From Kordia zhangzhouensis (GTDB lineage Bacteria; Bacteroidota; Bacteroidia; Flavobacteriales; Flavobacteriaceae), in assembly GCF_001005305.1 (NCBI RefSeq), contig NZ_LBMH01000006.1, forward strand, positions 62,001 to 126,000: a DNA stretch of 64,000 nt, read 5' to 3'. Below are positions 3,539 to 40,442 of this stretch, one piece after another; position 1 is the first letter of the stretch; the number at the start of each line of letters is the position of its first letter. The translations under genes and the position numbers were made by a program. The notes below the pieces were generated by a model. That model had not been told where the DNA came from, searched no databases, and saw nothing but the letters and a program-made list of their open reading frames with translations.

Positions 3539-3557
3539 AGGCTTTTGGTATAATTAG

Positions 3558-3579
3558 GTCAGATATTTTATACTCTGAC
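3558..3579. promoter_or_regulatory. Palindrome upstream of the LKR-like gene
   Basis: GTCAGA (3558-3563) and TCTGAC (3574-3579) form perfect arms around a 10-bp AT-rich spacer, 20-41 bp upstream of the start codon of the minus-strand gene. The position suits an operator for a dimeric regulator, but nothing in the window identifies the protein. Confidence 0.35.
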
Positions 3580-3658
3580 AAAAGTGTGTTTGGTATATTT
3601 TTTGATTACTTAATAGTAGGATTTTAAACAAAACACACAAAACTATTAAAATTTGTGT

Positions 3659-8517: not shown

Positions 8518-8526
8518 AATATAGAA

Positions 8527-19818: not shown

Positions 19819-19913
19819 GTGCTTGTATTTTTTGTGTTCCGTAATGGCTACACTGTTTTTATAATGTTATGGAATACTGGTACTGGTATTGAGATTAAGA
19901 TGAAAAGACAATC

Positions 19914-20651: not shown

Positions 20652-20653
20652 TC

Positions 20654-21229: not shown

Positions 21230-21251
21230 TTGTGTATATATTAATTTATTA

Positions 21252-27200: not shown

Positions 27201-27314
27201 ACTTGTCAATGCAAATAATTGAGAAGGTTGTATAGTGGTTAACACCAATTGCATTGCTAAATAGCAAGCTATAACCTTTGATAGTTTTCCAGTTCTAATA
27301 TGCTGTATAATCAT
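21252..27314 (-). CDS. Large exported SpvB/TcB-like YD-associated protein
   Basis: A 2020-residue exported protein. A long signal-like N-terminus (to about residue 36) is followed by GTSDMVNLSTGDFNYNIPIM, then MDQEASWVGLGWNLSVGQINR. The latter resembles the LGWxLxxxxIxR signature at the start of SpvB/TcB-type shells, and the whole N-terminal block is a recurrent flavobacterial arrangement. Long beta-rich stretches follow, with a late segment GRYSSAQYDSDYKLPLAVAS that is typical of YD proteins. No Hint domain or toxin tip is present. An ordered pair of a TcB-like and a TcC/Rhs-like protein recalls the cocoon of ABC toxin complexes; this is an inference. First gene of an operon driven by the LytTR-type site at 27490-27560. 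Confidence 0.78.
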   Translation of the reverse strand: MIIQHIRTGKLSKVIACYLAMQLVLTTIQPSQLFALTSGPSQPEFNAFTPIGTSDMVNLSTGDFNYNIPIMDVGGYPLNLAYDAGITMDQEASWVGLGWNLSVGQINRNVRGLPDDFKGDSIRYENNMKKNKTVGMTLSINGQLSGTEPIPGTEPIPGTDSFSGNASATLVHNNYEGFSFTPSFGVSYQFTKNTSVGMNLSPSVENGASVSPTIGFSESLDGAKANSNESISQNYGVGLPYNSRQGISAFNINSSTTRRVNIKKGYTSTLGSASRGVSFIDNTFTPTKRIGYHNENYTFRASLGPQLAAFSFEGGVSAFYSVQKIKKEEKIKEEKTYGYEFTKEASHKDILDFNRENERTVTKNTLALPITNYTYDIYQIQGQGIAGQFRPFKGQTGYVFNQKIEDSGDSFSLGGEIEGGWGFRNGVDIHYSPTRSHTGVWNTPAIHKFQSVSDTELDYEETYFKPIGDLSADLEEDLYNNKLSGEKPMALDLEPDGNKYNKKAVSRFNIKNYTATNDIEDDTPPVLIDGSLRRAKREQRNQAIQKINKKDASFDPFVSEHDSLKLHHTNGMKITQPSGAVYVYGEAAVNYTKEEVTFGANGIADLETGTIAVNGNDSADSAGGFDEYFNKIITPDYAHTYLLSAVLSNDYEDLTGDGPTDDDLGAYTKIHYNDFTNDTAEDNELISSLDATYKWSVPYNAEGEAPKASYNPGLYTKTNDQKGSYVRGEKELKYATMIETKTHVATFDFSKRKDAKGTGNSKMLRLNTIRLYSKPEYKKLINGDSDISPIKTAHFEYDYSLAPETLNSEATTADSNDGLTNRGKLTLKKVYFTYRNSKMGKYTPYVFNYDNMNPDYQMKSYDIWGNYKPLFEKGVSKVDTDSDGVNDDVVLPTGNTTATCEVEIDITAQEFPFVQQKDKELQDLYARAWTLSSIDLPSGGRIELQYESDDYQYVQDKKAMQMFKVKGVSDQVPLGLDNLTENLYTNGAHTKYLVVELLEDVNTSLSIDEFKARYLGENIDKPLFFRFLLNMTQNGNCNYDYVEGYCNIDKAGSFSVFTDTDNNGTVNDTSDDVDRKYGVIPIQLENQEGGDSSVSPFGNNLPAGTTNPIAKSGWFFARKHLNRYAYGTGDNTPSSTNIGDIVNAIGSTLPVMLEIFDGPNGYLERRRIARNFNPEKSWIRLQHPTNAKLGGGLRVKKVIMHDNWDIMVENPQSDSVNPYSNFYGQEYDYSLGKDENNNSKGSSGVATWEPNMSKENPLIQPFFDDSEKLQAREYVEKPFGKSFYPSAIVTYSKVSVKNLQRTYDDGTDVKVVKRHATGEVVNEFFTSKDFPTKSDHIDIDDKNNYRTNQENILDNVLRLSVNTELALSQGFSIITNDMNGKSKSQKIYDENKNLISGVDYKYNTNDTGELDNRLSVILSDGTVATKEIGTHYDVITDFNENYNLSESYGVNINLTFFTVGIIPILLGQIPYEYKRNETILHTTTTTKVIHKTGILKEKVAYDLGASVSTRNLAWDAVSGQVLLTETANAYKDNYYNFSYPAHWAYKGMGQAVQNLGISLWIEPVQSNGTPDASGDEEGATAWYQQSTSHYNTSFNLDKFLNEGDEVYMYNGEDETIEGHYWINEISPENKIIFIDRDGSIVNACGIDSNEKLIKVIRSSYRNLQSATMASVTTMRNPIGTGDDVIEVSDFAYGGTGVNPRIINASAIKYEDYWRKGVKYPSEDNLNGEHLLSYPKFSTVNPFINNVLGDWRAVKSYAYLTTRSSTDTKRNSGFFETFSPFYTYDSNLEKWVEDDTNWTFASEVTQYSPYGAELENRDALGRYSSAQYDSDYKLPLAVASNSNYTEMGYTGFEIDTYHFNFSQPNGVTITEEESHTGRYSIKVPAGSFSGQKVQLYDDGIECIPTVAVEIFDCPSTDSFICPIIPDQSVSLDHDSFSGSFNIPSLIQNHLGEHTIIQLRSATVISDTNDPNYVSLSINGLNLEVDILGQTLPNATATCRVGIKLDNGEICSFIITVGYGNA

Positions 27315-27489: not shown

Positions 27490-27560
27490 CTAAAGTATGT
27501 AATTATACTATGTTACCATATAAATAGTTAATAAGCGTACTTTTTTTTTCATAAGCGTCA
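27490..27560 (-). promoter_or_regulatory. LytTR-type direct repeat pair and promoter, YD operon
   Basis: On the minus strand two ACGCTTAT units (plus-strand positions 27551-27558 and 27531-27538) lie 20 bp apart, start to start, with an A-rich spacer. A -7-like box TACTTTAG (27490-27497, one mismatch to TAnnTTTG) starts 34 bp after the proximal repeat, as at the pilin promoter. No TTTG is seen at -33, consistent with activator dependence. The leader to the 2020-residue gene is about 170 bp. Confidence 0.75.
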
Positions 27561-27584
27561 TAAAAATCAGTTTTGAAATACTTT

Positions 27585-28169
27585 TTAAAGCTTAAGTGGT
27601 TTGGATTTGAAATTGAATTTAATGATTCCATTACCGAATAACTGATCATTATACAACAATTGAATTTCTTCATTTTCAGGAACGTTTCCAAAATATAACA
27701 AGGCTCTCTTAAAAGGAGCCACTTTGAAGTTTCGTTCAAACAAAACTCCCGAACACGTAATAGTATCTCTGGAAGAGGTAATAACTTGAAAATCCTTTTC
27801 TAATTTAAAAGACATATATTCTACCGCTTTTTCATAAGGCAAGTTGGTAAACTCTTTTTCAAGTAAATCTTTTTCTTCATCATGATGAAACTCAATTTCA
27901 ACAATGCGTTCATTTTTATGTAGTTTATATAATGAATCCACTGCTTTGGGCTCAAAATTTTGATTATCTTTTAAAATATAATAGTGTAACGGAACTTCTG
28001 TTGCAGTATAATTTATAGTGTTGATATATTGATTTATTTGTTTCGATTTCCACCCATCGACAGCCAAATTAAAAAATTTATAATCTTCTGTAACAACACG
28101 CTCATGAGAGGTATTCTTACAAGATATTACTGCCAAAATAGCAAATAGAATATATGCTAATTTTTTCAT
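27585..28169 (-). CDS. Lipoprotein of the secretion operon, unknown function
   Basis: A 194-residue lipoprotein with lipobox AVISC (Cys17), so it is anchored in a membrane. The mature part is mixed alpha/beta and ends in a beta-rich lysine-terminated stretch (IIKFNFKSKPLKL). I recognise no domain. It is the last gene of the pilin-to-secretin operon, 11 bp after the OmpH-like gene. Possible roles are a secretin pilotin or an accessory lipoprotein of the machine; the sequence gives no direct sign. Confidence 0.6.
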   Translation of the reverse strand: MKKLAYILFAILAVISCKNTSHERVVTEDYKFFNLAVDGWKSKQINQYINTINYTATEVPLHYYILKDNQNFEPKAVDSLYKLHKNERIVEIEFHHDEEKDLLEKEFTNLPYEKAVEYMSFKLEKDFQVITSSRDTITCSGVLFERNFKVAPFKRALLYFGNVPENEEIQLLYNDQLFGNGIIKFNFKSKPLKL

Positions 28170-28180
28170 AATGATTATGT

Positions 28181-28687
28181 TTATTGATTACTTCCTTCGT
28201 ATTTATTATTTGCAAACTGTATCACTTCTTCAGTAAAATCATACGTTTTATCAGCATACATAATATTCCCATTACCTTGTATTCCGAAAATAAGATGTAC
28301 TTCTTTTTCTGTGCCAAATTCTTCCAAATACGAGTTAAGTCGTTCCCAAACTTGCCTATTAATTTGCTCCTTTACTTCAGTAGTTAAACGTTGAAGGTTC
28401 GTATTCTCCAAATAGACTTTTTGTTTAAATTCTTGAATTGCTTTTGGGTTATTTTGTCGTTGTAATAATTGATACAAGCTGTCTATCTTTTTTTGTTGTT
28501 GATTTAAAGCTGGTAACTTCATTTTTTGTAAATCTTCAGTCATATTGAATTGACTAAACAATGCTAAATTATCAACATATCCATATTGTTTTACTTCTTC
28601 TTTTGGAAATAGAAATACAAACATACTAATCAGTCCTACAATGAGAAGTATTAGATTGATAATCGGGAGAAAAGTTAATTTTTTCAT
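28181..28687 (-). CDS. OmpH/Skp-like periplasmic chaperone-type protein
   Basis: A 168-residue protein with an N-terminal membrane segment (NLILLIVGLISMFVFLF) followed by YVDNLALFSQF, a long helical hairpin region with Gln, Lys and Glu (about residues 50-115), and a C-terminal GIQGNGNIMYADKTYDFTEEVI strand-helix part. This is the Skp/OmpH layout: a small beta body with coiled-coil arms, including the closing ADKTxDxTxEVI motif. Skp-type proteins hold unfolded outer membrane clients. Here an uncleaved anchor is likely. Its place inside a secretion operon suggests a dedicated chaperone. It overlaps the next upstream gene by 4 bp (ATGA). Confidence 0.7.
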   Translation of the reverse strand: MKKLTFLPIINLILLIVGLISMFVFLFPKEEVKQYGYVDNLALFSQFNMTEDLQKMKLPALNQQQKKIDSLYQLLQRQNNPKAIQEFKQKVYLENTNLQRLTTEVKEQINRQVWERLNSYLEEFGTEKEVHLIFGIQGNGNIMYADKTYDFTEEVIQFANNKYEGSNQ

Positions 28688-29166
28688 CTGCTTAATTTTA
28701 TCGTTTTTAATGTGTTATTGTATTGTAATTGTATGGAATCTTCATAAATTTTTTTGACCTCGAATTTTTCCAAAATGATTTCTCTTTCTCTCCTTTTCAT
28801 GATTTTTCCATTTACATTGATTACGCCTAATTTTTTGTTACTTCCTTTACTTACTATATATCCATGGTATAGAATACTAGGCCATTTTACACTAACAGGA
28901 AGTGGCTTTTTTTTAGGAGCTATTTTTGTCTGTGTTATTTTTTGTGATGTTTTACGTGTGACAAATACATTTTCAAAAGGATTGTTTATGTCTTTCAATT
29001 CAAAAGTATCTTTTCGTATTGTGTATTGAGTTGGTTTACTGGTTTTTTGAGCAATTTTAGGGCTTGATACTATTTTTTTCTTGACGAAATATGTATAACC
29101 AATACTTCCCCAAATGATGAGTGTCAACAAAATCAACGCATTATTTATATTCTTTTTAGAGATCAA
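28684..29166 (-). CDS. GspC/PilP-like inner membrane clamp protein
   Basis: A 160-residue bitopic protein: a transmembrane helix at about 9-28, a linker with basic and Pro-rich stretches, and a compact beta domain from about residue 95 (PSILYHGYIVSKGSNKKLGV, INVNGKIMKRREREIILEKF, KKIYEDSIQLQY). The pattern Y-x-G with later strands ending in kkIxxDsixlxy matches the homology-region domain of GspC and PilP, which connects inner membrane assembly proteins to the secretin. Operon position next to the other machine genes supports this. Sequence similarity is by pattern only; the role is inferred. Confidence 0.65.
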   Translation of the reverse strand: MISKKNINNALILLTLIIWGSIGYTYFVKKKIVSSPKIAQKTSKPTQYTIRKDTFELKDINNPFENVFVTRKTSQKITQTKIAPKKKPLPVSVKWPSILYHGYIVSKGSNKKLGVINVNGKIMKRREREIILEKFEVKKIYEDSIQLQYNNTLKTIKLSR

Positions 29167-29180
29167 AATTGATACTATTT

Positions 29181-30143
29181 TTATTCGGTTGTGAATGATC
29201 TGGAAATACTATAAGAGCTTGAATTTCCTGCAACATCTTTTGTTTTTACTCTCCAATAATACGTTCCGACATTTGGAATATCTACTTGTTGCGAAGTTCC
29301 ATTCGTGACTGTAAAACTTTCTATAATCGTATTGAAGTTAGCATCTTGTGCTATTTCAAGAATACTACTTACTTCCGACTGCACATTTCCACTGTCTTGA
29401 CCAGTAGTCCAGTTAAAATCTATAGCAATAGCTGTAATAATTTCCTCATTGGCAGGAGAAACTAATAAAGGCTGATTTGGTGCTTGCCTATCTATATAAA
29501 TTGATCTCGAAGTATATGCGGTTTCTGAATTAGAATTCACTGCTTTTACTTTCCAAATGTATGCTGCATCTTCATCAAAAACTGAAGCATTCACACTATA
29601 GTTTGTTCCTGTAATATCTCCTTGTTGTGTAAGTGTTGTTTGCCCATTCAGATTTTTAATCAACTCAAAAGTATAAGAATCTGCAAATTGTAATTCATTC
29701 CAAGTGAATAGTAAGTTAGTCGTATTTGTATACAAATTTGCGGATGGCGTATTGAGAAGTAACGTTTGGTTTGTTAAATCAGAAGAAGCTTCTACGGTAA
29801 AAGAAATCGGAAAAGAATACGCGGTATCATATGCAAAGTTTTCTCCTCTCACTCGCCACTGATACATTCCTGGCTCTAACGGATATTGAAACGAAGTTCC
29901 ACTAACCAGTGAATCCAATAGTATCATGTTATTTTGAGAAGGACGTACCAATTGTAATCGATAATTATCCGCACCTTCCAAAGATTGCCACGAAAAATTT
30001 ACCAAATTATTTACAATCGTACTGCCTTCTGAAGGCATGATTGGTATGACCAGATCATTACTTAAGTCTTCTTCTAAAATATCATCACATGATAGAAAAA
30101 GAAGCAACCATATAATGCTTAAAAATTTAATGTTATTTCCCAT
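29181..30143 (-). CDS. Lipoprotein with fibronectin III-like domains
   Basis: A 320-residue lipoprotein (lipobox LFLSC, Cys19). Three immunoglobulin/fibronectin III-type domains follow, each with a closing YxWRVxA-like strand: YQWRVRGENFAYDTAYSFPI, YIWKVKAVNSNSETAYTSRS and YYWRVKTKDVAGNSSSYSIS. Such domains usually make adhesive or scaffolding surfaces. It lies between GspC-like and GspM/PilO-like genes and overlaps the latter by 11 bp, so it belongs to the machine operon. It could act as an outer membrane scaffold around the secretin or at the cell surface. Confidence 0.75.
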   Translation of the reverse strand: MGNNIKFLSIIWLLLFLSCDDILEEDLSNDLVIPIMPSEGSTIVNNLVNFSWQSLEGADNYRLQLVRPSQNNMILLDSLVSGTSFQYPLEPGMYQWRVRGENFAYDTAYSFPISFTVEASSDLTNQTLLLNTPSANLYTNTTNLLFTWNELQFADSYTFELIKNLNGQTTLTQQGDITGTNYSVNASVFDEDAAYIWKVKAVNSNSETAYTSRSIYIDRQAPNQPLLVSPANEEIITAIAIDFNWTTGQDSGNVQSEVSSILEIAQDANFNTIIESFTVTNGTSQQVDIPNVGTYYWRVKTKDVAGNSSSYSISRSFTTE

Positions 30144-30654
30144 AATTTTGAAAATAAAGTTCTAACAATAATTCTGTTTTGTTTGTGCTATAATTTTTTT
30201 TTGAATAGAATTTTGCACTTACAATTTTGGAAGCTTTAAATTCTTTTTCAATAGTATATATTGTATTTAATAATGTTTCGTAATTGCCTGTCAAGATTAT
30301 TTTATTGGTAAGTATTGTAAAAGCATTATTCCCTTTATACATGTGAGAATCTGCAATATTTACAACACTTACATGAAGCGCATGTGTTGTTATAAAATCC
30401 AATATTTTTTGTTGTATTAATGCATGATTTTCTGAATTACCAACCACTTTATCTAATACTGATAATTCATTTTTCAAGGATTCAATTTTTGCAAACGGTT
30501 GTGTTACATTTTCTACCAATTGATATGAAGCATTGAGTTCTTTCTTTAATTGAAAAATAGGTTGATAGGTCTTTTTGTATACTGCCAAAAAGAGCAATAC
30601 CAATAAGAGTATCACGATGAAAAAACGTCTTTTATGTGAAATTTTTTCTAGCAT
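30133..30654 (-). CDS. GspM/PilO-like inner membrane protein
   Basis: A 173-residue bitopic protein: cytoplasmic start (MLEKISHKRR), a transmembrane helix (FFIVILLLVLLFLAVYK), a helical stretch (to about 80), and a ferredoxin-like domain at the end (LHVSVVNIADSH, TILTNKIILTGNYETLLNTI, SKIVSAKFYSKKNYS). This is the shape of PilO and GspM, assembly platform proteins that pair with PilN/GspL. It overlaps its upstream partner by 1 bp and the FN3 lipoprotein by 11 bp. Family assignment is by architecture and position. Confidence 0.7.
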   Translation of the reverse strand: MLEKISHKRRFFIVILLLVLLFLAVYKKTYQPIFQLKKELNASYQLVENVTQPFAKIESLKNELSVLDKVVGNSENHALIQQKILDFITTHALHVSVVNIADSHMYKGNNAFTILTNKIILTGNYETLLNTIYTIEKEFKASKIVSAKFYSKKNYSTNKTELLLELYFQNYGK

Positions 30655-31838
30655 TAGAAGTGAATATGAATTAGGAATGATTTTTTACGATTCCTATCTT
30701 GTGTATAGTCTTCAATATCTATTTTTTGCACCCAATCTTTTTCTGTTAATTCCGCTATCCAATAATTAAAATCCGAATCGTTGTTAGTAGTTCCTTGTAC
30801 ATGAATTTGTTTTTTATAAAATTGCACTTCTTTATCATCACGTATTTTCTTTGTAAGTGGCGTAATGTTAAGCTCCGTCAATTTGATGTTTTTCTGAACT
30901 GAATTCCCAATTTCATAGAAATAGTGTGTTAAGAACTTAGGGTGAAACAAACCTGAAGTAGCCACAATAGTTTCTTTGTTTTTTTTCTCTTTTTCTAATA
31001 AAGAGATTATTTCATTAGCTTTCGAAACTTCTGCAATCAAGGCTTCTTTTTCAGTAAATAATCTTTGATAGTTTTCCAAAGTAAAGTGCCCAAAAAGTAT
31101 TGCCATGAGTAATAATACTAACCCAATGATTCCAACTGTTTTTGTTCTATTAAAAAAAGCATAGTCGATACGATTTTGATCTAAAAAAGGAGTCTCCATT
31201 GTAAGCACTTCTTCTTGGACATGATATTGTATGACCATAGCGAATAAGGCAATTTCTTCCCTATTTAATTCTATATCTTCAATAGTGTATAGTTGTTTTT
31301 CTATAGTGCTGTCAATTTCAAAATCTTGAAGTCCATCTTCCGAAAAAAACAACTTTACGCTATTAGAAATAATGTTTTTTTCTGATAAAAAAGAACGCAA
31401 TGTATATGTAATAAATGGCCCCATTGCAATATCTAAAATGTGATACTTTTTGGCTTTGAACTGTGCTACATACTTATCAACCATTTGTTTTCTACACATT
31501 GACACAAATACGTGTTCACTTTGATGTAGTTCATAAAAATAGAAATCGTCTGGATTGCCTTTAAATAATAGCTTGTTACGATAATTAGCAACACGGACTG
31601 TTTTTTTATGAAGTATTCCAACACCAGAAAAATGTAACAACAAGGGATATTTTGGCTGTACTTCTTTGTATACAATGTCTAAAGATTTTGTATCGAAACG
31701 TTTACCTACCGTAAAATTATTTTGCTTATTGTGAACAGTCAAAAAGTAATAATTTACTGTTTCTTCAGTTGAAAAGTGAATACCCAACACTTGAAAAGTT
31801 TGTTGAAAAGGAATGATATGTTTTAACTTTTGAAACAT
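30654..31838 (-). CDS. GspL/PilM-PilN-like assembly platform protein
   Basis: A 394-residue protein with a cytoplasmic actin-like part of about 240 residues without hydrophobic segments, one transmembrane helix (VGIIGLVLLLMAILFGHF, about 245-262), a coiled coil (EALIAEVSKANEIISLLEKE) and a C-terminal periplasmic domain (KLTELNITPLTK, KKQIHVQGTTNNDSDF). This is the GspL design, or a PilM-PilN fusion: the cytoplasmic part would contact the ATPase and the periplasmic part the GspM-like partner encoded next. It lies 1 bp after the secretin gene. Actin-fold motifs are too weak to read. Confidence 0.7.
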   Translation of the reverse strand: MFQKLKHIIPFQQTFQVLGIHFSTEETVNYYFLTVHNKQNNFTVGKRFDTKSLDIVYKEVQPKYPLLLHFSGVGILHKKTVRVANYRNKLLFKGNPDDFYFYELHQSEHVFVSMCRKQMVDKYVAQFKAKKYHILDIAMGPFITYTLRSFLSEKNIISNSVKLFFSEDGLQDFEIDSTIEKQLYTIEDIELNREEIALFAMVIQYHVQEEVLTMETPFLDQNRIDYAFFNRTKTVGIIGLVLLLMAILFGHFTLENYQRLFTEKEALIAEVSKANEIISLLEKEKKNKETIVATSGLFHPKFLTHYFYEIGNSVQKNIKLTELNITPLTKKIRDDKEVQFYKKQIHVQGTTNNDSDFNYWIAELTEKDWVQKIDIEDYTQDRNRKKSFLIHIHF

Positions 31839-31839
31839 T

Positions 31840-33756
31840 TTAATACGTAACTGTTGGCTTGATAAGAATGTGTAATTTTGACTTCTCTTTTTTCTTTTTT
31901 CTACTACTGAAAAACCATTTTATTACGGGAATTCTAGAAAAGAAAGGTGTTCCTGTTCCTGAGTTTTCATTTTCCAATTCATCCAATCCGCCTAATAAAA
32001 TCATCTCATTATTTTTGACGCGTACCATCGATTCAAATTTCCGTGTAGCTTTTCCGGGAGGTGCATTTTCACCTGCTCTACCTAAAAAAGAACTTTGCTC
32101 TACAGACACTTCTAATGTGACATATTCATCTTTTGACACGTAGGGTTTGATGCGCACGCTCAAATTAGCATCCGTAGATTTCCATTGTCCAGATTGTAAT
32201 ACATTATTATTAATGCCATTTTGAATCAATTCATTTCTTTGCTCAAAGTAATAACTAGTTTCACCAATAGAAGTTGAAGCTTCATGACCGTTAAGCGTCA
32301 CTAATTTTGGCGTCGATTCTACTTTTATGTATGAGTTGTTTTCTAGTGCTTTCAGACTTAGGTAAAAACGTTCAGTTACTTTTCCTAAATTCACAATTCC
32401 CAAGCCATTAAAAGCATCTATCAATCCATTTACGGAGTTTGCATTTACTTGAACTTCTGAGGTAGGAAACAAGACTCCAGAAGTAGTTCTTTTGTTATCA
32501 TCTAACCCAGCTTGAAAACCCGTTTGCACTTCATATCCTTTTTGATATTGTACAATCATGATTTCAATTTCAATATTGGGAACTACTTTGTCAATTTCTT
32601 TTAAGTACTCTTTGAGTGCTATAATTTGAATACTAGAACCTGTTACTACAAACCCGTTTAATTCTACAAACTCTACAATTTCAATTTTATCTGTTAAGGC
32701 TTTGGGGAACGTTTCTTTTACAGATTCTATCGTTCTGTTTTCCATTTGAATCAACGTAGTTTTGCGCAATCCATCGGTGTCGTGTTTTCCAATTAAAAAG
32801 ATTTCATCAACTATTTTGTGAGTGTATTTTTTTCCTTTAAATACGTGATTTAAAAGCTCTTCAAAGGTAATTCCATTTGCTAGTAGTGTTGTTGTTTCAT
32901 TTTCGGGCTTGTCATACATAAAATAGTTAATATTCAGCTTTTCCGCAGCCTCCACTATAATATTCATAACATCCCCTTCATATGCATTGACTGAGAGAAA
33001 TCCTTTTGTATCAACAGCAATTGAATAATACCCACTCGAGTTTACAGGTACGTTTTTTTGTCTATTGTTTTTATTACTTTTTGAATTTTTGGCCGCAACG
33101 CTTTCTTCTATGACAATGTCACTTTTTTCAATATAATAGAAATCATTTTCATCTTTAGTAACCATTAAATTGTTTGACTTCGCCATCATGTCTAACACTT
33201 GATCAAACGGTCTGTTGAGAATATACGACGAAATCACTTGTTTTTTTATAGAAGGTGCTAACACAATGTTTTTTTGAGATGCATCTGTAATTGCTTGTGC
33301 TACTTTTACAATAGAGTCTTGCTTGAGTTTTAACGATAAAAAACCATTCTCTTTATTATAACTGACATCAATTTTTTTTACAGGAATAGGTTTAGGTTTT
33401 TCTGGAACAACTTCTTTCTTTTTTAAGACTAAAATTTTGCCTTTTACATCCATTTCTATATCATACTTCCCAATTAAAAAGAGCAATACATCTTTTACAG
33501 GAACATCATAAAAATTGCTAGAGACTATTTGATCCAAAGAAGTATCGACATCAATACTTAGCTTGTGTTCATCTGCAATTGCAGAAACAAAATCATACAA
33601 AGTGATTCCTGAAATTTCAACTTGCATTGTTTTATTATATGCATCAATTTCAGTAGCTAATTTTTCTATTTGTGTACGATACTCCTTGCTTTCCTGTGAA
33701 AAACAGCAACCAACTATTAAGAGGATCAGTATGAAACTAATTTTTCTATACATCAT
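31840..33756 (-). CDS. Secretin (GspD/PilQ-like outer membrane channel)
   Basis: A 638-residue secretin that forms the outer membrane pore. N-terminus: signal sequence and CCFSQ near residue 18, which could be a lipobox or a signal peptidase site. An N0/STN-type domain follows (about 45-110: AIADEHKLSIDVDTSLD). Further STN/N-type modules are at about 125-205 and 240-330. The secretin core spans about 410-638: VESTPKLVTLNGHEASTSIG, then the conserved MILLGGLDELENENSGTGTPFFSRIPVIKWFF, shown here in part, with R/K-rich RKKKKEKSKLHILIKPTV as final strand. It lies 1 bp after the ATPase gene. This gene is decisive for calling the cluster a T2SS/T4P-like machine. Confidence 0.92.
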   Translation of the reverse strand: MMYRKISFILILLIVGCCFSQESKEYRTQIEKLATEIDAYNKTMQVEISGITLYDFVSAIADEHKLSIDVDTSLDQIVSSNFYDVPVKDVLLFLIGKYDIEMDVKGKILVLKKKEVVPEKPKPIPVKKIDVSYNKENGFLSLKLKQDSIVKVAQAITDASQKNIVLAPSIKKQVISSYILNRPFDQVLDMMAKSNNLMVTKDENDFYYIEKSDIVIEESVAAKNSKSNKNNRQKNVPVNSSGYYSIAVDTKGFLSVNAYEGDVMNIIVEAAEKLNINYFMYDKPENETTTLLANGITFEELLNHVFKGKKYTHKIVDEIFLIGKHDTDGLRKTTLIQMENRTIESVKETFPKALTDKIEIVEFVELNGFVVTGSSIQIIALKEYLKEIDKVVPNIEIEIMIVQYQKGYEVQTGFQAGLDDNKRTTSGVLFPTSEVQVNANSVNGLIDAFNGLGIVNLGKVTERFYLSLKALENNSYIKVESTPKLVTLNGHEASTSIGETSYYFEQRNELIQNGINNNVLQSGQWKSTDANLSVRIKPYVSKDEYVTLEVSVEQSSFLGRAGENAPPGKATRKFESMVRVKNNEMILLGGLDELENENSGTGTPFFSRIPVIKWFFSSRKKKKEKSKLHILIKPTVTY

Positions 33757-33757
33757 A

Positions 33758-35179
33758 TTAGGTGTTCAATAAAATTGGATACACTTCTTCTAATGAAGTC
33801 GTACCATTTTTAAATAATTGTAACGCTTTGTGTGCTAAACTTTGAGTAGTATCAATATGATTTTTGGCTTCTTGCAAGCGTTCTTTTTTTATAACTTCTG
33901 AAATCATAGAAGTAATAGGAATCATTTCATAGATTGCGGTTCTACCTTTATATCCTGTGTAATAACATTGGTGACATCCTTTTGAAATGTAATGATTCGA
34001 TAACGTATAATCATTCCTTAAATAATTAGGTAAGTCTTCTTTGTTTAAAACTGCTTTTTCTTTACAGTGTACACATAGTTTACGAAGTAAGCGTTGCGCC
34101 ACTGAAATGTTGAGTGTTTCTGCTATTAAGAATGCTGGAACATCCATGTCAATAAGTCTTGAAATGGTTCCTAAAGCAGAATTTGTGTGTATTGTAGAAA
34201 GTACTAAATGACCTGTCAAGGAAGCTCTAATTGCCATTTGAGCAGTTTGTGCATCTCTGATTTCTCCTAACATAATAATATCTGGATCTTGTCGTAAAAA
34301 CGAGCGTAATGCGGAAGTAAACGTAAGCCCAATACTTTCTTTGAGTTGTACTTGATTGATTCCTTTTAGTGTGTATTCAATAGGATCTTCAACGGTTACA
34401 ATGTTTGTTTTGGAATGATTCAAGTGCTTCAACGTAGCGTATAAAGTCGTTGTTTTTCCTGATCCCGTTGGACCGCTAATTAATATAATTCCATTGGTTT
34501 TTTTGACCGCATTTCGATACATGTCTTGCTCTTCAGCATCCATCCCTAATGCATTTAAGTCTAAATGAGATGCATCTCTTCCCAACAAACGCATTACTAC
34601 TTTTTCGCCGTAATGTGTTGGCAATATGGAAACCCTAATGTCGAATGTATTAAAGTTGATGCGTCCATCTTGCGGCAATCTTTTTTCAGTAATGTCAAGG
34701 CTAGCACGAATCTTTATTTTGTTGATTAATTCGAGATAATTTGTCGTTTCTATTTTATATTTTTCAATGAGCAAACCATCAATTCTAAAACGCACGCGCG
34801 CTTCTTCCTCAAAGATTTCTATGTGAATATCACTCGCTCTAATTTGTTTGGCTTCTTGAATTAATTCGTCTAAAAAATCGGTGCTAAGTTGGGTATTAGA
34901 ATTTGCGTGTGCAGTTTCATTTTCTCCTGTTCTATAGTATGTAGCCAATGCTTGTTGAATACTTGCTGCATCTACATATTTAAAGCTGATTTTCTTACCT
35001 AAAAAGAGTTGCAATTCCTGCGTAAAGTGGTCTTTATTTCGATTCCCTTCTTCTGTATACAAAACAATTGTACTCGCATCTTCACTAAAAGGAATTACCT
35101 TATAGTGATTGGCAAGCTCAGCATTAATAATTTGCTTTTGCTCAACAGTGATGGCGATATATTGTTCAGTTGAATTCAA
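33758..35179 (-). CDS. GspE/PilB-type secretion or assembly ATPase
   Basis: A 473-residue hexameric ATPase that powers pseudopilus assembly. Motifs: Walker A GPTGSGKT at 236-243, Asp box TVEDPIEY at 262-269, Walker B IIMLGEIRD at 301-309, His box TGHLVLSTIHTN at 322-333, and the C-terminal zinc-binding cysteine pairs CVHC (369-372) and CHQC (about 404-407) that mark assembly ATPases (GspE/PilB) rather than retraction ATPases. The N-terminal part is shorter than in PilB. No second, PilT-like ATPase is in the cluster, favouring a T2SS-like pseudopilus over a retractile pilus. It overlaps the prepilin peptidase gene by 14 bp. Confidence 0.95.
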   Translation of the reverse strand: MNSTEQYIAITVEQKQIINAELANHYKVIPFSEDASTIVLYTEEGNRNKDHFTQELQLFLGKKISFKYVDAASIQQALATYYRTGENETAHANSNTQLSTDFLDELIQEAKQIRASDIHIEIFEEEARVRFRIDGLLIEKYKIETTNYLELINKIKIRASLDITEKRLPQDGRINFNTFDIRVSILPTHYGEKVVMRLLGRDASHLDLNALGMDAEEQDMYRNAVKKTNGIILISGPTGSGKTTTLYATLKHLNHSKTNIVTVEDPIEYTLKGINQVQLKESIGLTFTSALRSFLRQDPDIIMLGEIRDAQTAQMAIRASLTGHLVLSTIHTNSALGTISRLIDMDVPAFLIAETLNISVAQRLLRKLCVHCKEKAVLNKEDLPNYLRNDYTLSNHYISKGCHQCYYTGYKGRTAIYEMIPITSMISEVIKKERLQEAKNHIDTTQSLAHKALQLFKNGTTSLEEVYPILLNT

Positions 35180-35657
35180 TGAAAAATGGATTTACAATAT
35201 TGCAGAGTTTTAAACCAAAACACACGATTAGAAAAAGAGCTAAATACCCAGCTAATGGTAGTGTGGCCTGTTTTCTTAATTTTTGTGTAATCACAAATAG
35301 GATGATTGAAAGCAATAGTCCCACAATAAAAAACAGAATATAATTATGAACTTGAAACAAAGGCGTTATTACTATAAGAAATAAAATATCTCCCAAACCG
35401 ATTGATGTATCAATAGGGTTTTCTAACTGTTTATTTTTTATTGTTTGATACATCATAAATCCGATACTTGTTATGCCTAAAAAGGCAATACTTTTACACA
35501 TTTCGTAAAGGTTGAGTAATGGTTCTAGGTAGTTAATTAGGATTGAAATCATAGCAGTCCCTATGATAAGAAATGCGTGAACAGCTCTATATTTAAAATC
35601 TTGTATACTAATAATGAGAAACAGTAACAACAGTAGTATGATGAAAATTATTTTCAA
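35166..35657 (-). CDS. Prepilin peptidase (A24 type), without methylase domain
   Basis: A 163-residue polytopic membrane protein with six hydrophobic segments. Catalytic aspartates are seen as D20 (ISIQDFKYRAV) and D90 in SIGLGDILF, the GxGD motif of aspartyl prepilin peptidases. The N-terminal cytoplasmic methylase domain of PilD/GspO, with its zinc cysteines, is missing, so this is the short A24 form. It lies between the main pilin and the ATPase genes and would process the four (pseudo)pilins encoded here. Start codon ATG at 35657 overlaps nothing and lies 4 bp after the pilin gene. Confidence 0.85.
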   Translation of the reverse strand: MKIIFIILLLLLFLIISIQDFKYRAVHAFLIIGTAMISILINYLEPLLNLYEMCKSIAFLGITSIGFMMYQTIKNKQLENPIDTSIGLGDILFLIVITPLFQVHNYILFFIVGLLLSIILFVITQKLRKQATLPLAGYLALFLIVCFGLKLCNIVNPFFIEFN

Positions 35658-35661
35658 AACG

Positions 35662-36090
35662 TTAGTCTTTTACAATTTCTTTTAAGTTTCGTTGATGATC
35701 TATTTCCCAGGTATTGTAATTTCCATCGCCATCAAAATCTTGAATGGATTGCGCTCTGGCTTTGAAACTATTAATAGACGCTTCAATAATTTCAATTCTG
35801 TAAACAGCTTGTCCACCTTTATCAATCGTCAGTTCGGTTTCATATCCTATATCTTCTAAACTTGAAGAATATTTAGCATGTGTAAAAAAGTAATTTTTCT
35901 CGTAAGAGTATAGAGAGTTAAGAGCTGTTTTTGCCTCAATAGCTCTTGCTTGTACAACAGCTTGCGTTTGATTTGGTAATACTAAATATATAAGAATACC
36001 AATAATACATAATACAATAAGAATTTCAGTAAGTGAGTATCCTTTGAGCCATAAATGCTGTTTCTTTTTCTGAAGATTTTTTTTGACCAT
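35662..36090 (-). CDS. Main type IV pilin/GspG-like pseudopilin
   Basis: A 142-residue prepilin: basic leader (VKKNLQKKKQHLWLKG), cleavage after Gly, then YSLTEILIVLCIIGILIY with Glu at position 5, the classic class III signal. The hydrophobic helix leads to QARAIEAKTALNSLYSYEKNYFFTHAKYSSSLEDIG, shown here only as landmarks (EKNYFFTHAKYSSSL), the GspG/pilin pattern of the alpha1 end. A C-terminal DFDGDGNYNTWEID loop looks calcium-binding, as in GspG. First gene of the large operon, with its own LytTR-type promoter at 36119-36189. It is the only one of four prepilins here with the canonical Gly at -1. Confidence 0.92.
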   Translation of the reverse strand: MVKKNLQKKKQHLWLKGYSLTEILIVLCIIGILIYLVLPNQTQAVVQARAIEAKTALNSLYSYEKNYFFTHAKYSSSLEDIGYETELTIDKGGQAVYRIEIIEASINSFKARAQSIQDFDGDGNYNTWEIDHQRNLKEIVKD

Positions 36091-36118
36091 GAACCTATTG
36101 AGTTTTATTATTTCATAT

Positions 36119-36189
36119 CAAATGTATACATAAAGCACTATGACTCTATGAAATAGCTAATAAGCGTCAGAAATAATTAATAAGCGTTC
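36119..36189 (-). promoter_or_regulatory. LytTR-type direct repeat pair and promoter, pilin operon
   Basis: On the minus strand two ACGCTTAT units (plus-strand positions 36180-36187 with an A at the outer end, and 36160-36167) lie exactly 20 bp apart. The distal unit reads ACGCTTAT within GAACGCTTAT and the proximal within GACGCTTAT. A perfect -7 box TACATTTG lies at 36119-36126, starting 34 bp downstream of the proximal unit. No TTTG is present at -33, as expected for an activated promoter. The leader to the pilin ATG is about 25 bp. Confidence 0.8.
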
Positions 36190-36235
36190 ATTTTCTCTTG
36201 TAAAAAATGCTTTTTGAGCTAAAAAATAACACAGA

Positions 36236-37378
36236 TTAACCAATGACTTTACTGAGGTCAAACATTGGCGTGTACATGGAAATTAGGATAAAACCCACCA
36301 AAAATCCTATAATGATGATGATTAAAGGTTCTAAGATGGTGCCCACCATTTTTGTAGTGTGATCAATTTCATCATTATACTGGTTATTAAGTTTATGAAA
36401 CATACTATCAAGTTCATTGGTTTGTTCTCCAATACCTACAAGAGCTTTTAATTTGTCGGGAAATATAGTATGCTTTTGCAAACTAACAGCTAATGAATTT
36501 CCTTTCAATATGTCTTGTTTTATTTGGTAAATTGATTTCTGCATCGGATAAAACACAATCATTTCTTTGGTGAGTTCTAATGAGATAATTAAAGGTGTTT
36601 TTGCCCCTAGCAATAGACTTAATGATTGACAAAATCTGGATACATATATTTTCTGTATAAATTTGCCGATAAAAGGTATTTTTAAAAGTATAACACCTGT
36701 TATCTCTCTATATTTATCATTGTTTTTATAGTGTTTATGAATACCAATAATTAGTAATATAGCCATTAATAGCACTACTATTATGGTATTAAAGTTTTCT
36801 GATAATTGAATGACAAATTTTGTGATGCTAGGTAATTCACTTCCAAATTGTTTAAAAACAGAACTAAACATCGGAACAATATAATTGAGCATAAAATACA
36901 ATACCAAAAATGTAATTCCCAATACAAATGCAGGATATGTAATGACCGAAATAAGCTGTCGTTTCATTTTTATTTTACGCGCAAAAAATAACTGCAACTG
37001 CTGCAATACTTCTGCTAATTTTCGTGTTTCTTCCCCTATTTTTATACTATGATACTCATACGGAGAGAATTCTTTATGCTTTTTAAGAGCATCAAAAAGT
37101 GTATTTCCGGCAACTACATCTGTATTAATTGTTACCAGTATTTTTTTGATTTTTTTAGACTTTTGTTGAGAGGCTAATATATGTAGTGACTGATTAAAAT
37201 CGACACCTGATTTGATGAGTACCGCAAATTCTCTATAAAAAGCCTCTTTGTCTTTGCTTGAAAACTTAGAAAAAAAATCAAAGTTCAAAGAGGTCGAATC
37301 TGCTTTCTCGATTTTGAATTCCTTTATTGTATTTTTCGGTTTTGTTACATTAAGTTTCACTCCTTTAATTTTTAACAA
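36236..37378 (-). CDS. GspF/PilC-type inner membrane platform protein
   Basis: A 380-residue polytopic protein with two GspF domains. The N-terminal half holds FYREFAVLIKSGVDFNQSLH, then the first membrane helix (SVITYPAFVLGITFLVLYFML). The second half repeats the fold with VSRFCQSLSLLLGAKTPLIISLELT and ends with EPLIIIIIGFLVGFILISMYTPMFDL. This is the platform protein that anchors the ATPase and builds the pseudopilus. It follows the pseudopilin genes directly with no gap and is the last gene of the upstream operon before the pilin promoter. The order differs from proteobacterial T2SS. Confidence 0.93.
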   Translation of the reverse strand: MLKIKGVKLNVTKPKNTIKEFKIEKADSTSLNFDFFSKFSSKDKEAFYREFAVLIKSGVDFNQSLHILASQQKSKKIKKILVTINTDVVAGNTLFDALKKHKEFSPYEYHSIKIGEETRKLAEVLQQLQLFFARKIKMKRQLISVITYPAFVLGITFLVLYFMLNYIVPMFSSVFKQFGSELPSITKFVIQLSENFNTIIVVLLMAILLIIGIHKHYKNNDKYREITGVILLKIPFIGKFIQKIYVSRFCQSLSLLLGAKTPLIISLELTKEMIVFYPMQKSIYQIKQDILKGNSLAVSLQKHTIFPDKLKALVGIGEQTNELDSMFHKLNNQYNDEIDHTTKMVGTILEPLIIIIIGFLVGFILISMYTPMFDLSKVIG

Positions 37379-37858
37379 TTATTTCATTTCTTCTATAAAA
37401 GCAGTATTTATAGTTTGATTTAAAGTATTCTTTTTATAATAATTCAAATCAATAATTTCATCATGCAATTGTAACTTCAAAGAGATTGCAAAATGATGTT
37501 CTTTTTTTTCAAAAGTGCATGAAATTACTTTTGAAAATAGAGTTTCGACATGTGCATTATGAGCCCTTTTAATCGTATCATTTTTAAAAGAATAATATAT
37601 CTCTGTTTCGTCATATCGTTTTAAGTGTAAGGTTTCATCACTATAATCTAAAGTCACAGCTTTATACAAATCTTCATTGAAAGTAGTATTGAATACCGTA
37701 TAATCATTGGTGATTAATTGTTGCTTCTGAAAGATTATAAATTGCTTGTTAAAAGAGGTAAACACCGTATATATTACACCTATCAACACACTAGAAATGA
37801 TGAGACCAAATACGGTTTCTGTAAGTGTAAACGCTTTGTATTTATGGTTGAACCTCAT
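37379..37858 (-). CDS. Minor pseudopilin with prepilin signal KA-FTLTE
   Basis: A 159-residue protein with leader MRFNHKYKA, then FTLTETVFGLIISSVLIGVI, a class III signal and hydrophobic helix with Glu5. The residue before the predicted cleavage is Ala, not the usual Gly. The rest is beta-rich (LDYSDETLHLKRYDETEIYY), with size and shape of GspJ or PilW-type minor pseudopilins. It overlaps the preceding pseudopilin gene by 17 bp. Confidence 0.85.
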   Translation of the reverse strand: MRFNHKYKAFTLTETVFGLIISSVLIGVIYTVFTSFNKQFIIFQKQQLITNDYTVFNTTFNEDLYKAVTLDYSDETLHLKRYDETEIYYSFKNDTIKRAHNAHVETLFSKVISCTFEKKEHHFAISLKLQLHDEIIDLNYYKKNTLNQTINTAFIEEMK

Positions 37859-38204
37859 TAGTAGTTGAAATTAGATACGTAAATGTTTCTGTTTTTGTAT
37901 TGGTAGTTATGGTAAAATCAATTTGTTTGATATTGGAATTATCTTCATAATTATTCACTTCTTGTTCTATGGTAAAATTGGAGAATGTATAGGTTTGAGC
38001 TTCAATTTTATCTTGTTCGTGCAATTCATGTATGATTGTATGTATTTTTTGATGTGCCTGTATATAATCAGTAGAAAAGTTTGTTTTAAAAACATTCACA
38101 AAAACAATGGTTGCTACGACCATACAGATAGCAATAATTGCTGTTGCCATGACAGACTCTAGTAATGATGATGCTTTTACGTTATAATTCTTTAATAGTT
38201 TCAT
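37842..38204 (-). CDS. Minor pseudopilin with prepilin signal KA-SSLLE
   Basis: About 120 residues from ATG 38204 (MKLLKNYNVKA), which gives a normal short basic leader; a start at 38249 would add 15 non-basic residues. After Ala-11 comes SSLLESVMATAIIAICMVVA, a hydrophobic helix with Glu5. The compact C-terminal part is beta-rich (FTITTNTKTETFTYLIS). It matches GspI-like small pseudopilins. Ala again replaces Gly at -1. It overlaps genes on both sides, so expression is tightly coupled. Confidence 0.82.
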   Translation of the reverse strand: MKLLKNYNVKASSLLESVMATAIIAICMVVATIVFVNVFKTNFSTDYIQAHQKIHTIIHELHEQDKIEAQTYTFSNFTIEQEVNNYEDNSNIKQIDFTITTNTKTETFTYLISTTNEVQP

Positions 38205-39414
38205 AAGTACGAACATGTTCTGTATTTGTATCAAATAATGGAATTCCAATAAAATTTTCAGGTAGTTTACTAATGTCTATTTTTGCATTCATCAAAAGAT
38301 TAGCGTAGTTAGCTTCCTTAGTTTTAGTATTCAATCTATCTGCATACACACTTCCATATACAGTTCCTTTTAGTTCCATCACTCCATAACAATATATAGT
38401 TCCCACAACAGTTGCGCTATCATCAATGAATAGTGTTGATTTTTGTGCTGTTTGATGATTCATATTGTTTAGTATAATTCCTCCAATCAACACACTTTTC
38501 TTTCCTATAGTAATGTTAGCGCTGTCTTTTGGTTGCTGGATTAAGATACTTGATGGATATTGTAAGGTTACGTTATCTTCAATTATGACAGCCGTTGAAG
38601 CAATAATTTGAATGTTTCCACTAAAACCTTCTTCCACCACTACTTTTTTTGCTTTTATAATGACGTCTTCCAATTTCATATTTCGCCGTACCACTAATGT
38701 TCCTTCAGATTGAAATATAATATTCCCTTTAACTGTTTTACCTGACAAAAATGAAAGATCATTTGTAATGTGCACTTGTGTTGCTTTATCAAATGTCCGC
38801 ACATAGGTTTGTTGTTTCTCTATAACTTCAAAAGTTGATATTGAGGCCGATTCAATAGCTGTCTTCGTATCAAAGTTTCTCAATTTAGGAAGTCGCTCTT
38901 CAGATGTTTTTTGAATTCCTTGTACTTTTATGTTTGTCTTTTCCCCATGTATATTTTTTTTTTCAAGTATTCCTTTTGGAATGTAAATATCACCAGTAAT
39001 AGTTACATTACCTGCCACATTTAAAACTCTATCATAATCTGAGACATATAAAGCTATAGTAGGTTTTATAATTTCGCCTACAAGTACATTTTTTTTTACG
39101 GTATCCCTTTTATGATAAGTTTTTGCAGATAGTACTTTGTAAAATCCCCAATCGGATACTTTCATATTTGAATATATATGATCTGAAAAAATATTAGTCT
39201 GTAAGACTTCTTCTTTAGTTTTACTAATATTTGACAGCATTAATTGTATCGCAGAATCATTTGTGAGTTGCAGTTGAGTTTTTTGTAGTATTCTTTTTTG
39301 AAATAAGGAATTATAGCTTGACATTAATAACATTCCAAAACAAAGCGCGCCAATTAACAAACACACAAAAACAGCTTGTAATAATGACGATGCTTTAAGT
39401 TTTTTTAGCATCAC
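38182..39414 (-). CDS. Large minor pseudopilin-like protein with beta-helix repeats
   Basis: A 410-residue protein. The start MMLKKLKA-SSLLQAVFVCLLIGALCFG looks like a pseudopilin signal, again with Ala before the cleavage site and with Gln in place of Glu5; GspK-type tip pseudopilins also lack Glu5. The body, however, is not a GspK globular domain: from about 120 to 380 it is a series of short beta strands (VAGNVTITGDIYIPKG, VKGNIIFQSEGTLVVRRN, IIKAKKVVVEEGFSGNI, TIGKKSVLIGGIIL, ELKGTVYGSVYADRL) like a beta-helix or bactofilin-type repeat. This pilin-plus-helix combination may form the tip or an adhesive surface. Overlaps both neighbours. Confidence 0.75.
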   Translation of the reverse strand: MMLKKLKASSLLQAVFVCLLIGALCFGMLLMSSYNSLFQKRILQKTQLQLTNDSAIQLMLSNISKTKEEVLQTNIFSDHIYSNMKVSDWGFYKVLSAKTYHKRDTVKKNVLVGEIIKPTIALYVSDYDRVLNVAGNVTITGDIYIPKGILEKKNIHGEKTNIKVQGIQKTSEERLPKLRNFDTKTAIESASISTFEVIEKQQTYVRTFDKATQVHITNDLSFLSGKTVKGNIIFQSEGTLVVRRNMKLEDVIIKAKKVVVEEGFSGNIQIIASTAVIIEDNVTLQYPSSILIQQPKDSANITIGKKSVLIGGIILNNMNHQTAQKSTLFIDDSATVVGTIYCYGVMELKGTVYGSVYADRLNTKTKEANYANLLMNAKIDISKLPENFIGIPLFDTNTEHVRTYETIKEL

Positions 39415-40045
39415 GCTTCAGTTTTTCTTGGTTTCCATTAATAGTATCTTTACGCTTTCTTTTAAAAATACGCTTTAAAAAAGGCGCTCTTTGAATGGTA
39501 TCTTTCCGCTTTTTCTTAAATAAGCGCTTTAAAAAGGGTTCTCTTTTTATAGTATCTTTTTGTTTTTTTGGAACTAGAACTCCTCTTTTGTAAATCAATG
39601 TATCTCGTGAAACATAATCTATCCAAGTTCCATGTTTTTTGTGATTTCGATACATTCCTTCCTCTTTCTTTTCTCCGCTTTCAGTGTACGAAATAAAACT
39701 GCCGTGTCTAGAGCCATTTTTCCATTTTTCGGTTGTTGCTAAATTTCCGTTTTCATACCAACTCTTCCAAAGCCCATCTTTTAATCCGTTATCAAAAACT
39801 CCTTTTTCAGCAAGTTGCTTAGATTTATAATATTTAATATAATCATTCACTAAAATAGCACCTCCTATATCACCTGTTACCTGATGAATTTCTCCTGCTC
39901 TATACCAGAAATAAGTTTTTCCAATCTCAGGTTTTATCTTTTTTTCTAAAGAAATATAAAACTCATAATCAAAATTTTGATTATTGATGATTCGCTTTTG
40001 CGGAAGGGCACATAAAACTAAAAATAGTGTGATATAAATTTTCAT
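39395..40045 (-). CDS. MORN/YwqK-type repeat protein with C-terminal tandem basic repeats
   Basis: A 216-residue exported or membrane-anchored protein (hydrophobic start MKIYITLFLVLCALPQ). Its centre has toxin-antitoxin YwqK-type MORN repeats: GLKDGLWKSWYENGNLATTE, GSRHGSFISYTESGEKKEEG, NHKKHGTWIDYVSRDTLIY. The C-terminus has three basic repeats of about 17-18 residues around KDTIxRxPFLKRxFK at about 160-203. MORN repeats often bind lipids or proteins. It is the first gene of the minor pseudopilin operon and overlaps the next by 20 bp, with a LytTR-type site upstream; so it belongs to the machine. Its role is unknown. Confidence 0.72.
   Translation of the reverse strand: MKIYITLFLVLCALPQKRIINNQNFDYEFYISLEKKIKPEIGKTYFWYRAGEIHQVTGDIGGAILVNDYIKYYKSKQLAEKGVFDNGLKDGLWKSWYENGNLATTEKWKNGSRHGSFISYTESGEKKEEGMYRNHKKHGTWIDYVSRDTLIYKRGVLVPKKQKDTIKREPFLKRLFKKKRKDTIQRAPFLKRIFKRKRKDTINGNQEKLKRDAKKT
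39436..39566 (-). repeat. Tandem coding repeat, KDTI-PFLKR units
   Basis: Three units of about 51-54 bp at the 3' end of the MORN gene encode KKQKDTIKREPFLKRLF, KKKRKDTIQRAPFLKRIF and KRKRKDTINGN. The DNA units are similar enough to permit copy-number change by slippage. Confidence 0.7.
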
Positions 40046-40125
40046 AATTCCAATGTAACAAGAACTTGATAGATGTATTGAGTTGCATTTTACAACATAT
40101 ACTATACATAAACCAATTATACTTT

Positions 40126-40153
40126 ATAAGCGTAGAAATTAATTTATAAGCGT
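40126..40153 (-). promoter_or_regulatory. LytTR-type direct repeat pair, MORN/pseudopilin operon
   Basis: On the minus strand ACGCTTAT occurs at plus-strand positions 40146-40153 and 40126-40133, 20 bp apart start to start, 81-108 bp upstream of the MORN gene start. A -7 box at the expected distance is weak here (TAAAATGC). Confidence 0.75.
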
Positions 40154-40374
40154 CATTTTTTTCTATTGACATATGTGAGTTGAATTAGAAAAACACAGTT
40201 TTCTAGTGTTCAAAATGGTGAAGAAAATTTTCAAAAAAAAAGCTACCTAAGTAAGTGTCCTTGGTTGTTTAAATTTCTTGTAAATCATCGGTAATGTATA
40301 TAATGAATTTCAACACACTATTTTTATTAACATATTTTTAATAAGAAAAAACATACTTATTAAAACAAAACATG

Positions 40375-40442
40375 ACGCTCATTGCAAAAACTCGACGCTT
40401 ATACAATTTTTTTGTATCGAATAGGTGTAATACTTTCCTTTG
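40375..40442 (+). promoter_or_regulatory. LytTR-type direct repeat pair and promoter, LytTR gene
   Basis: ACGCTCAT (40375-40382, one mismatch) and ACGCTTAT (40395-40402) lie 20 bp apart on the plus strand, facing the LytTR gene. A -7-like TTCCTTTG (40435-40442, one mismatch to TAnnTTTG) starts 33 bp after the proximal unit. This points to autoregulation of the LytTR gene. Confidence 0.72.

Follow-up and report, generated by a model that had tools for sequence, protein, structure and literature searches.

Which genes are controlled by a pair of short direct repeats that recurs before neighbouring operons, and which protein reads them? This question is raised by a 64,000-nt stretch of Kordia zhangzhouensis (contig NZ_LBMH01000006.1, positions 62,001-126,000), hereafter the window, where the pair ACGCTTAT-N12-ACGCTTAT stands before a YD operon, two operons of a pilus-like machine and a standalone LytTR gene. 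An original prediction made from the window's sequence had regarded four such pairs as the regulon of this YD/secretion block, with the window LytTR protein activating all four units, including its own gene. Our analysis points to a wider role. The pair probably serves Kordia as the activator site of a regulon for natural competence that is coupled to secreted effectors, and its main activator is probably a protein other than the window LytTR. The original observation was right, its importance was underrated and its regulator was probably misassigned.

Paired repeats in the window and in the genus

A pattern search of the window recovered all four pairs where they had been claimed, each with repeat starts 20 bp apart and each facing its downstream gene (Table 1). 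Three are exact and lie on the minus strand, as do the genes that they face. The fourth, on the plus strand, reads ACGCTCAT/ACGCTTAT and carries a single mismatch. No pair appeared in 100 dinucleotide shuffles of the window. The lone 8-mer at up to one mismatch occurred 53 times against a shuffle mean of 50, which is not above chance, so the signal lies in the pairing. These shuffles and reversed-motif controls speak against repeats that arose by chance or from low complexity, and that reading was rejected.

In the complete 4.03-Mb genome (G000), 16 pairs were found at up to two mismatches, against 3 for the reversed control. The better pairs outside the window precede comM, radC, a gene of 192 amino acids upstream of recA and a second standalone LytTR gene with YD genes; others precede genes for a lipoprotein and a DUF6261 protein and a transglutaminase-like gene pair (named by eye). 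One pair outside the window has no open reading frame of at least 60 amino acids within 700 bp downstream, and four two-mismatch pairs lie inside open reading frames. Among 99 genomes searched, including this one, all 11 Kordia genomes carry pairs at up to one mismatch (5-18 each, 127 in total; reversed control 3). The 88 non-Kordia genomes together hold 4, with a reversed control of 3. A spread of the motif through the family was rejected, as it rises above background in Kordia only. The pair would name a regulon in a genus whose named species include K. algicida, K. periserrulae and K. jejudonensis.

Genes behind the sites

For gene context, we took stretches around sites in the other ten Kordia genomes and read the open reading frames downstream. 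The listing of families behind sites took in families with two or more members, and counts drawn from it are lower bounds. By homology, the target families that act on DNA have the Pfam assignments PF03772, PF00154, PF04002, PF01078/PF13541 and HU-HIG. An upstream site is present for recA in 11/11 Kordia: seven at up to one mismatch, those of G002, G007 and G010 by a weight matrix derived from the sites, and that of G000 with the 192-aa gene in between. For comEC, the weight matrix finds a site in 10 of the 11 genomes (at up to one mismatch in at least five), some 65 bp ahead of the start codon. At up to one mismatch, radC follows a site in at least seven and comM in at least four genomes, and genes for HU-HIG DNA-binding proteins do so in several.

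The pilin, MORN/pseudopilin and giant YD operons are all behind sites in G000, G002, G006 and G008. DUF6261 genes follow sites in at least eight Kordia genomes, two lipoprotein families in at least seven and at least six, and giant family-less proteins in at least four. Standalone LytTR genes, a papain-fold toxin domain protein and proteins with a type IX secretion system (T9SS) tail are also preceded by sites. The giant proteins L202, L203, L153, L183, L104 and L058, each behind a site, share a similar N-terminal stretch and measure about 1150-1320 amino acids where complete; the two that were scanned matched no Pfam family.

This distribution does not support the idea that four sites make up a regulon of the YD/secretion block: the same pair precedes comEC, recA, radC, comM and other genes, and it occurs in all 11 Kordia genomes searched. 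The original prediction had held that many genome-wide hits unrelated to its operons would speak against it. Taken literally, such hits are there, yet the extra sites fit a competence regulon. What stands of the earlier interpretation is the LytTR-type activator site, as described below.

Promoter architecture and conservation

Promoter statistics were drawn from 126 sites in 11 genomes (up to one mismatch, distinct downstream sequence, 90 bases downstream). A TAnnTT −7 box starts 32-36 bp past the proximal repeat in 91 sites, compared with 2-25 in other 5-base bins, and T occupies position 38 in 94% of the sites. The dinucleotide TG, a possible −33 element, starts at positions 9-12 in 51 sites (other 4-base bins 2-32), with its peak at 11-12, and is a weaker signal than the −7 box. 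In the window, the −7 boxes reported at three of the four sites were confirmed at 33-34 bp, with a weaker TAAAATG at the remaining one, but the reported lack of a −33 element is not general, given the TG enrichment just past the site. The repeat unit exceeds 8 bp: the third base past the proximal copy is A (0.98) and the fifth T (0.87), and a leading A precedes ACGCTTAT in 65% of sites.

We compared the recA, radC, comEC and comM sites between genomes, leaving out G000 for recA and comEC. The repeats are 86-94% identical, a value raised because the rows were selected by the motif, against 49-69% for the spacer and 41-59% for the flanks. A limit of one mismatch selected the radC and comM rows and seven of the ten for recA; the weight matrix, which leans the same way less strictly, chose the remaining three for recA and all ten for comEC. 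The −7 letters of comEC show a lower identity of 57% because the box there frequently sits about one base off.

The pairing of direct repeats at a distance of about two helical turns, the near-fixed distance to the −7 box and the conservation of the repeats over the spacer all support a LytTR-type activator site, and the repeats look like a site at which the activator adjoins the polymerase. AraC-type factors also use direct half-sites, spaced 20-21 bp, so the spacing by itself would be compatible with a non-LytTR factor of this kind. The half-site, however, is almost identical to published half-sites of LytTR proteins, and the promoter distance agrees with that of LytTR operons in Bacteroides (excerpts of PMC6193735), which makes a non-LytTR factor very improbable indeed. 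Compared by eye, (A)ACGCTTAT has 8 of 9 bases equal to the Streptococcus mutans BrsR half-site ACCGCTTAT listed in that paper (PMC6193735).

Two further observations concern the repeat itself. Four standalone LytTR genes of K. algicida (G009; L384-L387) have by eye a 13-base instead of a 12-base spacer, with starts 21 bp apart. SOS regulation was considered and rejected, as the Flavobacteriaceae motif GGA-N5-TCC, in the part of PMC8565304 available to us, is unlike the Kordia repeat.

A candidate competence regulon with secreted effectors

The set of comEC, recA, radC, comM, the HU-like protein and a ComG-like pilus appears to point to natural transformation. Its toxin-like partners suggest, by analogy, that killing may be coupled to DNA uptake. 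Such coupling is known for streptococci and Vibrio. We propose that a LytTR-family protein would bind both repeats on one DNA face, just upstream of the −33 region, and would recruit RNA polymerase to the TAnnTT −7 box about 34 bp downstream. Its targets would be the DNA channel comEC; the recombination genes recA, radC and comM with the HU-like protein; the type IV pilus without PilT-type ATPase where present, as in the window; and secreted or toxin-like products, namely YD/RHS proteins, the papain-fold toxin and peptides. Because uptake genes and toxin-like genes share one site, DNA uptake and attack on neighbours would be induced together. The window LytTR would itself be a target, and the main activator would be another LytTR protein, most plausibly a membrane-anchored one. 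Hypothetical competence proteins of Riemerella likewise include ComEC, RecA, ComM and RadC, with homologues in Flavobacterium (excerpt of PMC7965970).

Several points weigh against a competence regulon. No site was found for dprA within the fetched stretch in any of the 11 Kordia, and a dprA insertion mutant of Riemerella transforms below the detection limit (excerpt of PMC8459023). In K. zhangzhouensis itself, the comEC site has an intact distal repeat and, at the usual place, a decayed proximal one. The start of recA lies about 500 bp past the site in most species with a hairpin-like inverted repeat between, and for these two reasons the site may not serve recA; the 192-aa gene intervenes as well in K. 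zhangzhouensis. A PilB-type ATPase above the cut-off is missing from G004 and G010, though both carry regulon sites, so the regulon does not always include the pilus. Many targets (DUF6261, the lipoproteins and the giant family-less proteins) have no known competence link, and we found no report of transformation in Kordia in the open literature.

Some of these points would suit a programme of surface colonisation and killing, in which the sites serve YD toxins, T9SS-secreted proteins and peptides while comEC, recA and radC act in DNA repair or in the use of nutrient DNA. Many targets are indeed secreted, lipoprotein or toxin-like, dprA is without a site and two species are without the pilus ATPase. 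Against this, comEC, recA, radC, comM, the HU-like protein and the ComG-like pilus would fit known competence gene sets more closely than sets for repair or adhesion. We consider a killing programme of this kind unlikely and retain the competence regulon as the probable explanation.

The region between site and recA was also scanned. The hairpin was not called in a terminator scan of two recA loci, and an Rfam scan of four recA loci gave two sub-threshold matches only. A conserved TTTTTACTGCAACTAC followed by an inverted repeat AAAAGTGCTTCT...AGAAGCACTTTT stands there in L107, L120, L126, L140, L170, L176, L188 and others. Several LytTR and toxin-like genes have a similar element, TTACTGCAAnnACnG, some 150 bp ahead of their sites.

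The window LytTR as a probable target

The K. zhangzhouensis genome encodes 21 LytTR proteins. Strong standalone homologues of the window LytTR (at least 44% identity, itself included) also number 21 and occur in G000, G001, G003, G005, G007 and G009. G008 offers only a 43% match, and none was found in G002, G004, G006 or G010. An N12 pair at up to three mismatches precedes 13 of the 21 homologues and an N13 pair four (all K. algicida, by eye), with no full pair before the other four. Since most have repeat pairs upstream, the standalone LytTR genes look like targets.

The claim that the window LytTR activates all units, its own included, has in its favour these upstream pairs, the one before its own gene among them, and the overlap known between the regulons of two LytTR proteins, HdrR and BrsR (excerpt of PMC6193735). 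It is contradicted by the five Kordia that have sites and no strong homologue: they hold 8-18 pairs each, and in three of them (G002, G006 and G008) the same pilus operons carry sites anyway. With strong homologues in 6/11 genomes and sites in 11/11, the window LytTR is unlikely to be the general activator, and its activating all units is quite improbable. It looks like a regulon target and would be a secondary regulator at best. The next gene, on the other strand, encodes a DUF2490 protein. Neither the window LytTR nor the membrane LytTR described below shows the operon of a soluble LytTR with a membrane inhibitor that marks a LytTR regulatory system (LRS).

Other LytTR proteins were narrowed down by elimination. 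Sixteen of the 21 match G002 at 55% identity or more over nearly their full length, and six of these have no full-length match of at least 45% in G031 or G036, which represent two other genera. The procedure assumes, perhaps wrongly, a regulator that is specific to Kordia and also kept in G002, and it compares two outside genomes. The six comprise the membrane LytTR and those of L032, L037, L038, L044 and L045. That one of the genome's other LytTR proteins is the activator is possible, though we would not call it probable: five pass the same elimination, but in the loci read none has an intergenic site or a competence gene next to it. An alignment of base-contact residues did not tell the LytTR regulators apart, and a sequence search for PDB relatives returned only 3d6w, weakly.

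A membrane LytTR beside double-glycine peptides

The membrane LytTR is a single chain of 309 amino acids with at least three hydrophobic segments and a LytTR domain. One orthologue is present in each of the 11 Kordia genomes, at 58-64% identity to the K. zhangzhouensis copy, and none in 49 other genomes, where the best match reached 28%. A contig search by two short peptide patterns gave eight matches, all in Kordia. In G000 and in K. algicida (G009), the gene comes directly after comM, which is preceded by a site; in G003 it lies about 8 kb behind. One to several genes for Cys-rich double-glycine peptides start within 240 bp downstream of it in all 11 Kordia (L204-L214, L300-L307). Of seven peptides scanned with a class I lanthipeptide leader model, three pass the cut-off and the other four fall just below.

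We rank this protein first as the best candidate for the main activator, judging from its sequence and setting. It would sense, or be gated by, the peptides in a peptide-controlled competence circuit. Its spread equals that of the motif, and the place behind comM and the constant peptide neighbours also fit. On the other side, no site of its own was found in the other nine Kordia (G003 and G004 with smaller flanks), it is just one of six LytTR proteins passing the elimination, its identity to G002 is 58% against 94% for some rivals though the motif is invariant, and it may serve its own peptides only. We therefore put forward its role as main activator tentatively, at somewhat short of an even chance. 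A bolder version, which we hold doubtful, is that the peptides are a pheromone and that the membrane LytTR, possibly from the membrane, switches on uptake, recombination and YD/RHS killing, as an independent Bacteroidota counterpart of streptococcal ComCDE.

Features of the window

The features are collected in Table 1. The 3763-aa YD/RHS protein resembles a polymorphic toxin, and the 142-aa gene that follows may confer immunity to it. A second secretin/ATPase cluster, its secretin mostly about 735 amino acids, occurs in G000 (C22), G001, G003, G005, G007 and G009 (L230-L236); these are the same six Kordia that have strong standalone LytTR homologues, and four other genera have it too (60 genomes searched). 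A transfer-messenger RNA gene with the tag GENNYALAA lies at 3710-4106. Denise et al. 2019 grouped the so-called type II secretion system of Bacteroidetes with type IVa pili (PMC6668835, in excerpt), and the window machine fits that placement.

Table 1. Putative regulatory elements and genes of the window (window coordinates; −7-like boxes read by eye; operons and domains from open reading frames and domain searches)
Feature	Position	Strand	Remarks
Activator site 1 (putative), ACGCTTAT-N12-ACGCTTAT	27531-27558	-	5' of YD operon; same place in G002, G006, G008
−7-like box TACTTTAG	27490-27497	-	34 bp past site 1; position matches the genus-wide one
Activator site 2 (putative)	36160-36187	-	5' of pilin operon; same place in G002, G006, G008
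−7-like box TACATTTG	36119-36126	-	34 bp past site 2
Activator site 3 (putative)	40126-40153	-	5' of MORN/pseudopilin operon; same place in G002, G006, G008
Weak −7-like box TAAAATG	40086-40092	-	34 bp past site 3
Activator site 4 (putative), one mismatch	40375-40402	+	5' of standalone LytTR gene
−7-like box TTCCTTTG	40435-40442	+	33 bp past site 4
YD operon	8089-27314	-	2020-aa protein, 203 aa, 245 aa, 3763-aa protein, 142 aa
3763-aa YD/RHS protein	8527-19818	-	RHS core 3273-3345 at cut-off; intein/Hint-like stretch 3514-3585 just below cut-off
Pilin operon	27585-36090	-	ten genes: the four below and six further
Pilin	35662-36090	-	resembles ComP/ComGC, below cut-offs
Prepilin peptidase A24	35166-35657	-	pilin operon
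PilB/GspE-type ATPase	33758-35179	-	pilin operon
Secretin	31840-33756	-	pilin operon
MORN/pseudopilin operon	36236-40045	-	MORN protein, 410 aa, 135 aa, ComGF-like pilin, GspF/PilC platform protein
ComGF-like pilin	37379-37858	-	likeness below cut-offs
GspF/PilC platform protein	36236-37378	-	MORN/pseudopilin operon
Standalone LytTR protein, 132 aa	40520-40918	+	PF04397, E 5e-14; no other domain found

Comparison with known systems

Natural transformation has been reported for a few Flavobacteriaceae. We found no competence regulon or regulator for Bacteroidota, Kordia and Flavobacteriaceae included, in the open literature. A 28-bp signature before comEC, recA, radC, comM and the pilus makes the timing of flavobacterial competence testable, and it would tie DNA uptake to polymorphic toxins in Bacteroidota. 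The likeness to streptococcal sites suggests that one type of LytTR half-site controls competence in two distant phyla. In Streptococcus pneumoniae, the LytTR protein ComE acts on paired direct repeats in competence, with a double-glycine pheromone precursor, as may be the case in Kordia. Unlike the Kordia candidate, ComE has a receiver domain and a partner kinase, ComD, and it serves early genes only, late genes being reached through a sigma factor.

Other comparisons draw on published systems, for each of which we rely on excerpts of the papers cited. In geometry, the Kordia sites are like the LytTR sites of Streptococcus and Bacteroides (PMC6193735). The LRS-like operons of Bacteroides have LytTR proteins with transmembrane segments, and their repeats precede a promoter of Bacteroidota type, TGTA-19-TATCTTTG, by 11 bp; they differ in their 11-bp repeats of another sequence and in a partner membrane protein, and the excerpts name no targets beyond the operon itself (PMC6193735). 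Transformation in Riemerella, also of the Flavobacteriaceae, involves ComEC, ComM, RecA, RadC and DprA, whereas the excerpts report that no pilus homologue was found there and name no regulator of competence (PMC7965970, PMC8459023). TfoX/QstR of Vibrio cholerae likewise places DNA uptake and neighbour killing under single control, but through other regulators and with a type VI secretion system, not YD/RHS-type effectors (PMC6237807).

The closest likeness is to HdrRM/BrsRM of S. mutans. There, a LytTR activator acts close upstream of the promoter on two direct repeats of 9 bp that are separated by 12 bp (BrsR half-sites ACCGCTTAT/ACCACTTAT in Table 2 of PMC6193735), HdrR and BrsR control competence and bacteriocin genes, and the system is autoregulated (PMC6193735). 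It differs in having a soluble regulator with a separate membrane inhibitor, and in being Gram-positive (PMC6193735). The Kordia repeats, counted as 9-mers, are 11 rather than 12 bp apart. Kordia sites immediately precede comEC, radC and pilus operons, and a single chain anchored in the membrane is the candidate regulator. With these differences, the Kordia switch is probably much like streptococcal competence, with a LytTR-type regulator.

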